In this document: positions 3,151 to 63,976 of the stretch, piece by piece
Layout: each line of letters opens with the position of its first letter
Numbering within the stretch: the stretch's first letter is position 1
Origin: Clostridium pasteurianum
GTDB lineage: Bacteria; Bacillota; Clostridia; Clostridiales; Clostridiaceae
DNA: 64,000 nucleotides
Direction of reading: 5' to 3'
NCBI RefSeq assembly: GCF_001705235.1
Contig: NZ_MCGV01000001.1
Location: 1,302,001 to 1,366,000 of the forward strand
Made by a program: the position numbers and the translations under genes
Notes under the pieces: model-generated
Told to the model about the DNA's origin: nothing
What the model saw: only the letters and a program-made list of their open reading frames with translations
The model's database searches: none

Positions 3151-3190
3151 AATACGCATAGCAAAAATTAATATCTCTACTGTGCGTATT
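3151..3190 (-). terminator. Probable intrinsic terminator after the chemoreceptor gene
   Basis: Inverted repeat AATACGCA (3151-3158) / TGCGTATT (3183-3190) around a 24-base loop. Read on the minus strand, the second arm runs into TATTTATTTTTA. It lies between the chemoreceptor stop and the response-regulator start, in the right direction to end the chemoreceptor transcript. Confidence 0.5.
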
Positions 3191-3236
3191 TTATATAATA
3201 TCTTAAATTTGTATATTTACAAGCCAGAATAACCTA

Positions 3237-4952
3237 TTATGCTATTTTAAACTTTGATACCATTTCGTTAAGATTTTGAGCTAACTGTGCCTGATTTTGA
3301 GCTGTTATTGCTACCTGTTCTGTTGCTTTTGATACCTCATCGACACTTGCTTTTATTCCTTCAGCATGTTCAGATGATGCTTGCTGAGTTTCAGCCATAC
3401 TTTGAGAAGCGCTGCTTACCTGATCTACTGTAGCAGCAAGCTCTTCCGACATTGCAGCAATTTCCTCTGATACTTTACTTATAAAATCAGCATCATCATA
3501 ATACTGCTGTCCAACTTTATTGAATGCTGTAAACCTCTGAAGTACATCTTCATTTATAAATTTCAACACTTCATCACTATTTGAAGAAAGATTCTTAAAT
3601 GCCTCTTGTACTTTGGTTATAGTAGAATCGATCCCAGCTACAGATTGAGCTGATTGTTCTGCAAGCTTTCCAACTTCATCTGCTACTACAGCAAATCCTT
3701 TACCTGCCTCGCCTGCTCTTGCAGCTTCTATTGATGCATTTAAAGCTAATAGATTTGTCTGCTCTGAAATGCTTGCTATAGTATCTGCCATAACTTTTAT
3801 ATTATCAACTACTTTTCCCTCTTCTATAGCTTCAACTATTTTATTTTTCTTTTCTGAATATAAGTTTTTAGTCTCTTCTGTAGACTTTTTAACATATTCA
3901 TTACTCTCTACAGCTCTATTTTTTGAATCATTTGAGCTATTACTTTGGTCCATAGTTTTTGACGATAATTCATTTATACTTGAATTTACTTCTTCTACTG
4001 ATGCATTTATTTCCTCTGAAGAAGCACTCATATTTTCAATTCCTGACACAATATTACTTACAGCATCATCTATACTAGCTGCCTTAGATGATAATTCTTC
4101 AGAAGTAGCCGAAAGTTCTTCACTTGCAGCACTCATATCCTCGGCATTACCCATAATTGTTTTTACAAGTCCTGCAACATGTTTCTGTGAAGAATTAAGA
4201 GAAGCTCCTACTTTTCCAAGCTCATCTTTACGTGTTATTTCAATAGGTGTTGAAAAATCAAATTTACTAAAACGTTCTGCCATTTTTTCAATTTTCTTAA
4301 GTGGTCCGTTTATATGGTTTGCCATAAGTATTCCAAGTATAATTGAAAGCGCTATACTAAGAATAATCACACCTATTGATATGTATACAGCACTAATAAA
4401 AATCTTCTGACTGCTATTATAATCATTATCAGCTAATTTTAAGTTAAGGCTTATTTCACTATCTAATACAGAAAAAGCTAATTTTCTATTTTTTGAAACA
4501 TCTTCATAGTAAGCTTCAGCCTCATCATAATTGTTCTGCTTAACCAATTCAATAAATTTTTCCCTTGATGATCTCCACTTAGCTAAATAATCATTAAGTT
4601 TAGAGTATTCTTCCCTATCCTGTTCTGTAACAATTGTAGATTTATATTCACTTAATAACTTGTTATCCTGAACTTTCAAATCATCAATTTCTTTAATAAC
4701 AGTGTCTATATTATCTTTATTCTTTTCATTTCTTAAATATATGATATCTGCTCTTATTTCTGTTAGATTTGTCTTTAATTCTTTTAACTCATTTGTACCC
4801 TTTAAATCAATGTTATATATATTTTTTAAATTATTATTTATGCTTCTACTTCCATTTATACCAATTATGCCAACTATAAGTGTTAGTAAAGAAACAATTA
4901 TAAATACTAAAGTCAGTTTTTTAAATATTTTCATATCCGATATTACTCTCAT
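3237..4952 (-). CDS. Methyl-accepting chemotaxis protein (4HB sensor, HAMP, signalling domain)
   Basis: 571-residue membrane chemoreceptor. A first membrane segment spans about 15-35. An extracellular helical region (about 36-185) resembles the 4HB_MCP sensor. A second membrane segment is at about 188-210, HAMP at about 211-265, and a long coiled signalling domain carries the hairpin tip [20 protein letters not shown]. The tip is intact, so it should couple to CheA/CheW encoded elsewhere. AAAAGGAG precedes the ATG at 4952; an internal ATG six codons later lacks a comparable site. The gene stands alone. The ligand is unknown, as is usual for 4HB sensors. Confidence 0.93.
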
Positions 4953-17496: not shown

Positions 17497-17533
17497 AAAT
17501 ACGCACTAAACTTTTAATTTTAAGTGAACATAA

Positions 17534-17729
17534 AGCGAAGTAACAATGATGAAGGAACGCTAAAAGAATTCTATACATCTAAGGTAAAAAAATCATAAAA
17601 TCTTAAGACATTTCAATAACTCGCTGAAAAAATGTTCAAATAAATTGACATATCTAAGTATTTTATGATTTTTTTACCAAGATTCATTAAAATTCTTTTA
17701 AATTGTTCCTTCATCATTGTTACTTCGCT
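17534..17729. repeat. Dispersed hairpin repeat, copy R1
   Basis: A 196-bp inverted repeat between yesN and the sugar operon. The outer 25 bases (17534-17558 and 17705-17729) are perfectly complementary, further inner blocks pair with few gaps, and the centre holds the family core ATAACTCGCTGAAAAAATG followed by TTCAAATAAATTG. It is one of five copies in this window. No ORF inside. In RNA it would fold into one very long hairpin. Confidence 0.88.
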
Positions 17730-17741
17730 CCTACAGGAATA

Positions 17742-17880
17742 CAAGGAAAAAATTCCTCCGTACCTACGGAATTTTATGGCATAAAGCTTTGTGGTACTAG
17801 GATTTTTATAATATAACCACTTCCATTTCCACTAGTGGAAATGTTCTTTTCTAAAATGTAGATTTTCCAGAGCAAAGCGC
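17742..17880. repeat. Satellite motifs B and C-like beside R1, with 20-bp palindrome
   Basis: Motif B (GGAAAAAATTCCTCCGT then CCTACGGAATTTTA) occupies about 17744-17776; the same unit occurs at 33985 and 39690. A perfect 20-bp palindrome, CATTTCCACTAGTGGAAATG, lies at 17824-17843. A degenerate motif C (GATTTTCCAGAGCAAAGCG) lies at 17861-17879. None of these falls in a gene. The palindrome could be the yesN terminator or a protein site. Confidence 0.65.
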
Positions 17881-34139: not shown

Positions 34140-34324
34140 AAGTAATAGTATTTTGGGAACAATTTAAATAAAATTCAATAAGACTTGCTTCAAATTATAA
34201 AAAGACTTAGAAATTTTAATTTGTCTGAGCTTTCTTTCAGCGAGTTATTAAAATTTCTTAGTATTTTTATAATTTGGAGCTTAGTCTTATGATTTTTATT
34301 TAATGTTTCAAAATACTATTACTT
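34140..34324. repeat. Dispersed hairpin repeat, copy R2
   Basis: 185-bp inverted repeat with arms of about 80 bases (AAGTAATAGTATTTTG... and ...CAAAATACTATTACTT). The core is inverted relative to R1: GTCTGAGC, then CTTTCAGCGAGTTATTA. It ends 20 bases before the aldehyde dehydrogenase stop, so in RNA it would act as a very long 3' hairpin and could stabilise or terminate that message. Confidence 0.88.
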
Positions 34325-39482: not shown

Positions 39483-39675
39483 GATGAAACAATAATATTG
39501 CATGTCAGTAAATAAAGGTCATAAATCTAAGAGACTAATTATTAAAAGACTAAGAAGTTTCAATAACTCGCTGAAAAAATGCTCAGACAAATTGGAACTT
39601 CTAAGTCTTTTAACAATTAGTCTCCAAGATTTATTGACCTTTATTTAAACTGCCCTGCAATATTATTGTTTCATC
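39483..39675. repeat. Dispersed hairpin repeat, copy R3
   Basis: 193-bp inverted repeat upstream of pflB, arms of about 80 bases (GATGAAACAATAATATTGCA ... TGCAATATTATTGTTTCATC). Core ATAACTCGCTGAAAAAATGC then TCAGACAAATTGGAACTT, in the same orientation as R1. Transcription reading toward pflB would have to pass it only if the promoter lies beyond; more likely it flanks the promoter. Non-coding. Confidence 0.88.
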
Positions 39676-62215: not shown

Positions 62216-62321
62216 GAGAAGTAACAATGCTTTGTAACATTAAAAAAATCCTATAAATCTAATGTTACAAAATCACAAAATCCTAAGATATTTCAATAAC
62301 TCGCTGAAAAAATGCCCAAAC
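62216..62321. repeat. Dispersed hairpin repeat R5, left half (interrupted by IS110)
   Basis: Starts GAGAAGTAACAATGCT and runs to the core ATAACTCGCTGAAAAAATGC then CCAAAC, where the IS110 element begins. The right half resumes at 63889. Joined, the two halves give a 192-bp hairpin matching R1 and R3 in length, arms and core. Confidence 0.88.
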
Positions 62322-62442
62322 CTGCTAAGTAAAGTCAAGTGTTTTTATTAAAAAATTTCAAAGAAATTTTTCAGTAAAATAGGGCAACTTTAAAAGAACC
62401 TTCTTACAGAAGATTTTTTTAAAATGCTCTATTTTTATTTTT

Positions 62443-63645
62443 TTAGTTTTTCAAAATTTCTGAAACTCTAGCATAATATATTCTCAAAAATTTATTTAAT
62501 CCTGCTATTTTAGCCTGCTTCTTTGCCTTACCCTCTGATTCTTTTTTTATTATATAGTCATACACTGCTGTATCTTTAGTGGGGACTCTACATTTTATGC
62601 TTTTCATTATCTCATAACCTGTTTTTCTAAGATATCGAGATCCTCGTTTTGATATTTTTCGGTTGTTTCCATTAAAGTTTCCCGATTGATAAGGTGGTGC
62701 ATCTATTCCTGAATAAGCCACAAGAGCCTTTGCACTGTAATACTTTCTTACATCACCTATTTCCGCAATAATTCTTGGTGCCAGTCTTTCTCCTACACCG
62801 TTCATATTCAAAACAACATCATATTCTGGTAATAGCTTGGCAAGTTCCTTCATTCGTGATAATATTTTATTTAAGGTTATTCCAGTCGAATGGATGCCCT
62901 TTATAGTTTCTAAGATGATCATTTTTGTACTTGACATCTTAGAAGGCATAGTTGTGATACTATTTTTAGCGAGAATATATATTTCATGAGCTTTATTCTC
63001 GCTAAATTGGTATCCTTCTTTTTTTGTCCACTTCTTATAGTTTTCAGTAAATTTATTTTGGCTTAATTTAATAATATTGTCATAATGCCAGTATTTTTGA
63101 ACAAAATCTGATAACTTATCTTTTGCAAAGTTAGGTGAATTTGAAGCTAGAAGTCCTGCAATTCCTGGCATTGTTTCATCTAAAAGGTTTGAAAGAATTA
63201 CTTTAAGTTTTATTCTTAAGGACATAAACTGAAAATATTCTCTTGAAAGAGCTTTAAGTTCATAATATATATCTTCTTCTATTTTATAATTACTTAGTTC
63301 ATGCCAATTGTCTAAGCCAAATTTCGAGATTGTTTTTGAGTCTAATTTATCTGTTTTACCTTTTCTAATAGATATACTTGCATACTTTTTCATAAGCATG
63401 GGATTAACAACAGAAACCCAAATTCCTCTTTCCTGTAGATAAGATACTACTGGAATATGATAATGTCCTGTTGCTTCCAAAATTACTTTACTTTCTTCGT
63501 CAAAACTTATAATCTTATCAGCCAGCTTTTTTAGTTCTTCTAAAGTATGTTTAACTTCAAAAGGTTTCTCTAAAATTTCACCATATAATTTGCGAATACA
63601 AACTGTACTTTTGTTTTTTGAAACGTCTATGCCAACACTAATCAT
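62443..63645 (-). CDS. IS110-family DEDD transposase/recombinase
   Basis: 400 residues. N-terminal RuvC-like DEDD domain with SVGIDVSKN (Asp7), ILEATGHYH and KTDKLDSKTI. Middle coiled-coil region. C-terminal Transposase_20 domain with MNGVGERLAPRIIAEIG and YSGIDAPPYQSG, which supplies the catalytic serine. All key motifs are intact. Catalyses bridge-RNA-guided recombination between the circular element and a target. ATG 63645 is chosen over 63696 because AAAGGAG precedes it and the family start (MISVGIDVSK) follows. Confidence 0.95.
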   Translation of the reverse strand: MISVGIDVSKNKSTVCIRKLYGEILEKPFEVKHTLEELKKLADKIISFDEESKVILEATGHYHIPVVSYLQERGIWVSVVNPMLMKKYASISIRKGKTDKLDSKTISKFGLDNWHELSNYKIEEDIYYELKALSREYFQFMSLRIKLKVILSNLLDETMPGIAGLLASNSPNFAKDKLSDFVQKYWHYDNIIKLSQNKFTENYKKWTKKEGYQFSENKAHEIYILAKNSITTMPSKMSSTKMIILETIKGIHSTGITLNKILSRMKELAKLLPEYDVVLNMNGVGERLAPRIIAEIGDVRKYYSAKALVAYSGIDAPPYQSGNFNGNNRKISKRGSRYLRKTGYEIMKSIKCRVPTKDTAVYDYIIKKESEGKAKKQAKIAGLNKFLRIYYARVSEILKN

Positions 63646-63664
63646 AATATCGACTCCTTTGCTA

Positions 63665-63888
63665 AAAATTTTGTCCATCCACTTATTACTACTCATTTTT
63701 GTTCGTTACACGGAAGCTAATTATAGTTCCAACCTGCTTAATCGAATATACGTAACAAGGAATGGGTGATAGTTTGAGCCACGGAAGCAAAATTCCAACA
63801 ATTGAATCATCAGCCCATTTCTTATTATATTAAAATAAGTGTAGGTACTTAATCAAATGAGATTAAGTGTCTACACTTATAGTACAAG
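63665..63888 (-). ncRNA. Candidate bridge RNA of the IS110 element
   Basis: Non-coding left end upstream of the recombinase gene, where IS110-group elements encode their bridge RNA. The minus-strand RNA can form a hairpin at 63835-63880, then a stem-loop 63761-63819 (AATGGG/CCCATT stem). Its 5' loop strand TTCAATTGT matches the right insertion flank for nine bases and its 3' loop strand GCTCAAAC pairs with the left flank for eight (one G-U). A second stem-loop (about 63710-63759) carries AGCAGGT, matching the element's own left end (ACCTGCT at 62320). Both loops include the core dinucleotide. Confidence 0.75.
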
Positions 63889-63976
63889 ACAATTGAAATA
63901 ACTAAGTATTTTGTGATTTTGTAACAAAGATTTATTAGGATTTTTTTAAATCGTTCCTTCAGCATTGTTACTTCTC
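63889..63976. repeat. Dispersed hairpin repeat R5, right half
   Basis: Resumes ACAATTGAAATAACTAAG and ends AGCATTGTTACTTCTC, the exact complement of the R5 left end at 62216. After it come GTGCAAGGATAAAA bases like those that lead into motif B beside R1, so a motif B may lie just beyond the window. Confidence 0.85.

Follow-up and report, generated by a model that had tools for sequence, protein, structure and literature searches.

An IS110-group element of Clostridium pasteurianum with a bridge RNA that matches a dispersed hairpin repeat, and changes of guide and target among its relatives

Results

Anatomy of the element and its recombinase

The window, by which we mean the whole stretch of 64,000 nucleotides of the Clostridium pasteurianum genome that was analysed, carries near its end an IS110 element of 1,567 bp (without the core copies). 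It lies on the minus strand, with its right end (RE) to the left and its left end (LE) to the right of the window, and its bounds were taken from four copies and from relatives. The following features were assigned.

62216 to 62318, plus strand: left arm of the split hairpin repeat, with most of its loop (outer limit approximate)
62319 to 62320, no strand: RE-side core, AA (TT on the element strand), probably donor-derived
62321 to 63887, minus strand: IS110 element, RE to LE
62443 to 63696, minus strand: IS110 recombinase ORF, 417 aa counted from the first ATG
63675 to 63828, minus strand: bridge RNA with target-binding and donor-binding loops (match of covariance model R1, G000:C1:1365675-1365828)
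63701 to 63709, minus strand: probable right donor guide (RDG), GTAACGAAC, weak and assigned by eye
63731 to 63743, minus strand: left donor guide (LDG), GATTAAGCAGGTT, resembling by eye the RE end ACTTAGCAGG plus core TT
63773 to 63780, minus strand: right target guide (RTG), GGCTCAAA on the minus strand, its last bases being the core complement AA
63797 to 63807, minus strand: left target guide (LTG), ATTCAATTGTT on the minus strand, its last bases being the core TT
63835 to 63880, minus strand: 5' stem-loop of LE, ahead of the target loop (inverted repeat I19 and fold)
63888 to 63889, no strand: LE-side core, GA (TC on the element strand), probably target-derived
63890 to 63976, plus strand: right arm of the split hairpin repeat (outer limit approximate)
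17534 to 17729, 34187 to 34280 and 39521 to 39634: further places of the dispersed long-hairpin repeat

The recombinase matches PF01548, the N-terminal DEDD RuvC-like domain (121.4 bits, cut-off 29), PF02371, the C-terminal Tnp domain (64.4 bits, cut-off 21.3), and the NCBIfam entry NF033542, 'IS110 family RNA-guided transposase' (189 bits, cut-off 140). The active site of IS621 consists of D11, E60, D102, D105 and S241 (PMC11208158). Its counterparts here, in the numbering of the 417-aa frame, are D24, E74, D116 and D119, which were found by motif and whose region was aligned with IS621 (PDB 8wt6), and S338, which aligns to the IS621 'SG' motif in the same structure. Because relatives begin at the equivalent of M17, the recombinase probably starts at this residue (63648), and in that case the non-coding end upstream of the gene measures 239 nt (63649 to 63887). 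The guide RNA lies upstream of the recombinase gene and not downstream as in the IS1111 group; by its DEDD and serine domains together with the upstream two-loop RNA, the element is assigned from its sequence to the IS110 group of the IS110 family.

Bridge RNA and guides

At gathering cut-offs no Rfam family was matched anywhere in the window, and a permissive Rfam search of LE returned only four eukaryotic small-RNA families, far under their cut-offs. When LE was folded as a lone sequence the two loops fused, and an alignment fold was used instead. When the two-loop RNA was aligned over nine lineages, 11 of 38 predicted pairs showed a double change with the pair kept. Covariance model R1, built from nine sequences that include the element's own bridge RNA, found matches in 16 of 206 family genomes at E <= 1e-4, the model-building genomes being included in this count. 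Four of the matches, L129 (G097), L130 (G102), L131 (G134) and L132 (G153), come from genomes in which no recombinase was matched at E <= 1e-80; these are possibly decayed or non-autonomous elements, or elements with a more distant recombinase.

A preliminary description of this DNA had placed a stem-loop at 63761-63819, with loop strands matching both sides of the insertion site. The stem-loop is present and corresponds to the target-binding loop, with the amendment that it is read on the minus strand. The letters on which the match was based were confirmed, ACAATTGAA occurring at 63798-63806 and again at 63889-63897, and AGTTTGAGCC at 63771-63780 being complementary to the left flank. On the donor side the RDG pairs with LE only in part and discontiguously, as judged by eye, and the element's own ends are too uniform among lineages for a permutation.

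The interrupted repeat and its family

As had been described, the element splits a long hairpin; the insertion point is the apical loop, and the empty site rejoined from both flanks folds at z = -7.9. The repeat is about 190 nt long, and one uninterrupted copy in the window, folded as 17500-17800, reached -96.8 kcal/mol (z = -13.3). Allowing up to 3 mismatches, a search of the genome with a 20-nt loop motif gave 165 places, some of them flanking element copies, and none when the motif was reversed as a control. With two stricter patterns, 141 uninterrupted copies were listed (54 and 87). The dispersed repeat has no Rfam match. Its arms vary between copies and remain complementary.

The genomic setting was surveyed at 30 loop-motif loci, two of which hold the element. 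All of the remaining 28 uninterrupted repeats lie outside mechanically called ORFs of at least 80 aa. In 15 of them the nearest upstream ORF, also mechanically called, shares the strand of the repeat and stops 79-95 nt short of the loop, a distance that places its end at or within the hairpin base. A small TTCCTCCGTnCCTACGGAA hairpin was seen 126-129 nt after the loop in nine of the 28.

Copies in C. pasteurianum and in congeners

Whole-genome search revealed four copies of the element, one of which lacks 143 bp of its interior, and the protein search concurred. All four sit in the loop of different repeats of one family, with neither the base of insertion nor the orientation differing between them; the loop motif flanks three of them within 2 mismatches, and L003 sits in a divergent loop. 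The copies are 99.5-100% identical, while the adjoining arm sequence is 37-83% identical (ungapped, 46 nt) and the LE-side flanks, the side that was compared (1.46 kb), have nothing in common beyond stretches no longer than 93 nt with 75-94% identity. Near-identical elements beside otherwise unrelated LE-side flanks establish that the insertions were separate and recent, and the sequences of the copies likewise establish the site specificity.

All three copies in C. hydrogenum (protein identity 90-92%) are inserted in the loop of the same repeat family, and in two of them a stop interrupts the recombinase frame. An LE end with bridge RNA (L106) sits in the repeat loop in C. guangxiense, where a decayed recombinase remnant (L076) also runs directly into the right loop half with no recognisable RE. 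Neither the repeat pattern nor the element was found in G001, one further genome of the genus. The comparative evidence thus agrees with the earlier proposal that the bridge RNA is programmed for the repeat, and no copy at an unrelated site was found among the four here and the three in C. hydrogenum. It is very probable, from sequence comparison, that this is an RNA-guided element of the IS110 group with a target loop fitted to the dispersed hairpin repeat. We further infer that it may be adapted to spread among these repeats as a safe multi-copy niche.

Core dinucleotide and junctions

The preliminary description had noted AC at both junctions. This is literally true, but according to the homologues the core lies one base over, at 62319-62320 (AA) and 63888-63889 (GA). 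AC was set aside as the core because the LE-side base follows the CAGAC/CAAAC polymorphism of the repeats; in addition, TT immediately ahead of the apical stem closes the left guide of the parsed lineages, and AA closes their right guide. The core is therefore most likely AA/GA, or TT/TC on the element strand; a GT core is the less probable alternative.

On the element strand, the RE-side core is TT in all seven readable RE junctions of the genus, and the LE-side core is TC in six and TT in two of the eight LE junctions. Among the uninterrupted repeats of the nearest subclass, GA (TC) was found at 48 of 53 parsed sites and AA (TT) at the other five. The simplest reading, drawn from six informative sites, which are few, is that LE retains the core of the target and RE that of the donor. 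In IS621 the top strand is cleaved just 3' of the core (PMC11208158), and cleavage of this type would therefore be expected to leave, for the top strand, the target core at LE and the donor core at RE. If this is true, the junctions would document in the genome that strands were exchanged 3' of the core.

Spacing between the left guide and the site

It had also been suggested that the guide fits the family consensus. This holds for the right guide, whose GCTCA is the order of most of the repeats printed; the AC-AATT spacing of the left guide is a minority form, present at four of the 53 parsed uninterrupted sites of the nearest subclass (three with AATTG). For this count 54 sites within the search pattern were typed, one of which could not be parsed. 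The shorter AATT spacing, the same as in the guide, is found at three of the four insertions against four of the 53 uninterrupted sites (Fisher p = 0.0045, with only four insertions and a subclass picked after looking), and the excess looks like guide-driven choice.

Guide and site differ in length by one T at four of the eight sites of the genus (L002, L072, L073 and L074). All three C. hydrogenum sites are one T shorter than their guide, and the L002 site has one T more than its own guide. Such misfits mean either that a one-base bulge is tolerated or that the guides changed after insertion. We rejected the idea that one T is lost on insertion: among the C. hydrogenum repeats listed AATTG predominates by eye, and uninterrupted AATTG also occurs in the C. 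pasteurianum genome. The idea that the guide tracks the majority spacing of its host was rejected as well, since each host's left guide fits the commoner spacing of the other host.

Guide and target across the clade

Left guides match their own flanks at 48 of 70 positions over 10 lineages and right guides at 46 of 54 positions over nine lineages; the cross-pair means are 1.83 of 7 and 2.63 of 6, respectively. In 100,000 permutations the observed match was never reached on either side, so that guide and target covary at the level of sequence. One site was used per guide lineage, with seven positions left of the core and six right of it, and L131 contributed its left side only. The lineages are related, L087 and L136 being 96% identical elements of one genome. 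Since the count is ungapped, L085, L086, L131 and partly L087, with a one-base shift in a T run, weigh against the result. The permutation was confined to sites other than further copies sharing a lineage's guide, L130 (guide unparsed), L132, whose target loop has lost a part, the degenerate L113/L139, L095 with its unreadable left side, and L076 (no guide region).

By eye, six of the nine single-copy relatives (L085, L088, L138, L090, L091 and L137) lie in or beside terminator-like stem-loops. In these six and in L131 the guides match, again by eye, the T run behind the stem or an arm near the loop. Of the single-copy sites with both flanks, four of nine have z below -2 compared with 12 of 116 control windows, the controls being neighbouring upstream windows and not intergenic ones. 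A rule that the clade always targets hairpins is not established by these four sites, and because three of them belong to one lineage a general hairpin preference is a lead and not a result.

A second hairpin-targeting case and a re-aimed copy

Eleven bridge-RNA matches were found in G022, a genome of another genus in the same family, whose recombinase is 56% identical to that of C. pasteurianum. Ten of its copies carry one common guide, unlike the C. pasteurianum guide. The left flank is readable in nine of the ten, and all nine sit by eye in one dispersed long hairpin; in the tenth (L095) the left side contains N and is unreadable, and the right side lies in the repeat. This hairpin is unrelated to the C. 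pasteurianum repeat. At least 64 arm matches to a joined-flank query were obtained (40 of 126 candidates scored), and one example folds at -84.8 kcal/mol.

The eleventh, L136 (G022:C16:920600-925400), is 96.2% identical over the element and differs from its sister copies in both target guides, which match its own site at 9 of 12 positions on the left and 7 of 9 on the right. This site lies in a second dispersed hairpin with 50 matches, its own two halves included, of which one example folds at -83.0 kcal/mol. Either the guide acquired a new target inside this genome, or two sisters with different aims came together in it. When 38 places of the second hairpin were compared with 40 of the first, 18 of the 38 had a place of the first hairpin on their own strand at a distance of 492-735 bp, and one had such a neighbour on the opposite strand; in many cases the two are therefore parts of one composite repeat.

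Discussion

Alternative explanations

A recombinase that itself recognises a hairpin or cruciform structure, the guide match being secondary, is an unlikely explanation of the sites. The stem-loops seen by eye in or beside the sites of the six relatives named above would fit it, as would the two long-hairpin repeats that house the G022 copies, but the insertion point varies by lineage (loop, arm or T tract) and follows the guide. No stable hairpin was obtained at L086, L089 and L129 (z of -0.2, -1.6 and +1.0), the scores at L088 and L138 are only -1.9 and -0.8, and at the G022 sites they range between -3.7 and +1.4, in windows of 118 nt that are shorter than that hairpin.

Shared descent, in which a single insertion was copied along with the repeat through repeat mobility or gene conversion, could account for every copy lying at the same base of one repeat family. 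We consider it very improbable, given the contrast between the near-identical elements and the divergent arms and LE-side flanks reported above, and given that the LE end in C. guangxiense shows the spacing CAATCTG, which is usual in that host's own repeats. Least credible of all is a chance resemblance of guide and site in AT-rich DNA. The 14-nt site motif CAAACAATTGAAAT does lend it something: at up to 2 mismatches it was found twice in the window against 3.6 expected, and 226 times in the genome against 169 for the reversed control. As a genome probe this motif was too short, and the loop motif was used instead; its 165 occurrences against none, together with the permutations over lineages, leave hardly any room for chance. 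Targeting of the repeat by the guides is hence the reading that we retain. Points that tell against it are the one-T misfits between guide and site, the incomplete pairing of the RDG, the presence of an intact CAAACAATTGAAAT motif in two uninterrupted repeats (L012 and L013), and the lack of an Rfam match. The wider proposal that the clade re-aims its bridge RNA at long hairpins dispersed in each host, with insertion tolerating a core mismatch (target TC, donor TT), is one that we hold to be evenly balanced between true and false.

Proposed mechanism

The circle, transcription and strand-exchange steps are inferred from IS621. By this analogy the element would move as a circle through RNA-guided site-specific recombination. 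On excision RE would be joined to LE, and the bridge RNA would thereby gain an upstream promoter-like pair (TTGACT-17-TACTAT). The left guide of the target loop would then pair with one strand of the hairpin loop region and the right guide with the other, the donor loop would pair with the element's own joined ends, and the recombinase would exchange strands at the TT core. Recombination directed in this way to the loop would have led to accumulation of the element in these repeats. A lenient pattern, TTGA(C/T)N-17-TANNNT, spans the junction in 10 of 10 joined ends, counted with no shuffled control. A simple promoter scan of the inserted LE found nothing on the minus strand, which fits transcription from the junction only and proves nothing.

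Relation to known systems

Bridge RNAs of IS110 elements and the use of REP elements by IS621 of E. coli, a member of the IS110 group, are established (PMC11208160). This element shares with IS621 a DEDD/serine recombinase, a long LE in which a 5' stem-loop precedes two guide loops, and the LTG/RTG/LDG/RDG layout with the core within each guide, the RDG being a probable one here (PMC11208160, PMC11208158). Common to both are also a promoter at the circle junction, recognised here by sequence pattern alone, and insertion into a dispersed palindromic repeat, which is REP for IS621 (PMC11208160). They differ in the core, TT here and CT in IS621 (PMC11208160, PMC11208158), and in the recombinase, about 400 aa here against the 328-residue chain of IS621 (PMC11208158). 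Host and repeat are unrelated to those of IS621, and a hairpin of about 190 nt takes the place of the short REP (PMC11208160). With the loop of a hairpin as its target and not a short REP palindrome, the element falls outside the REP target class; it works like REP targeting, yet on a repeat of another kind.

The REP-specific elements ISPpu9, ISPpu10, ISPa11 and ISRm19, classed as IS110, were catalogued in 2006 (PMC1525189), and ISPa11 has been placed in the IS1111 family (PMC11187229). Like the element described here, they had all copies in the host repeat (7/7, 7/7, 6/6 and 4/4, respectively); unlike it, they use proteobacterial REPs, and no guide RNA was known at the time of the catalogue (PMC1525189). 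In ISEc21 and the seekRNA elements of the IS1111 family an RNA of the non-coding region selects the target, as here. The IS110-type RNA lies upstream of the gene, as in this element, whereas in the IS1111 family, which carries subterminal inverted repeats of 11-13 bp, it lies downstream (PMC11187229). Families of stem-loop sequences have been counted in C. perfringens and C. tetani (PMC2267715).

Bridge RNAs and REP-targeting IS110 elements are thus already known, and the interesting parts are the natural re-aiming and the mismatched core. Among the papers listed by a narrow search of the open-access literature, none was, judged by title and start of abstract, about natural retargeting. In these lineages nature offers a series of joint changes in guide and target, one pair of them inside one genome, and sequence data can therefore address how bridge RNAs acquire new targets. 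The series also adds a TT-core, AT-rich relative of IS621 in which mismatches of core and spacing at the sites are seemingly tolerated in nature.

In L138 (G025:C23:1-4800), an IS110 relative of 2,177 bp, an ORF of 121 aa at 3175-3540 stands between the recombinase and RE; it belongs to the glyoxalase superfamily (PF00903) and is possibly a passenger gene.
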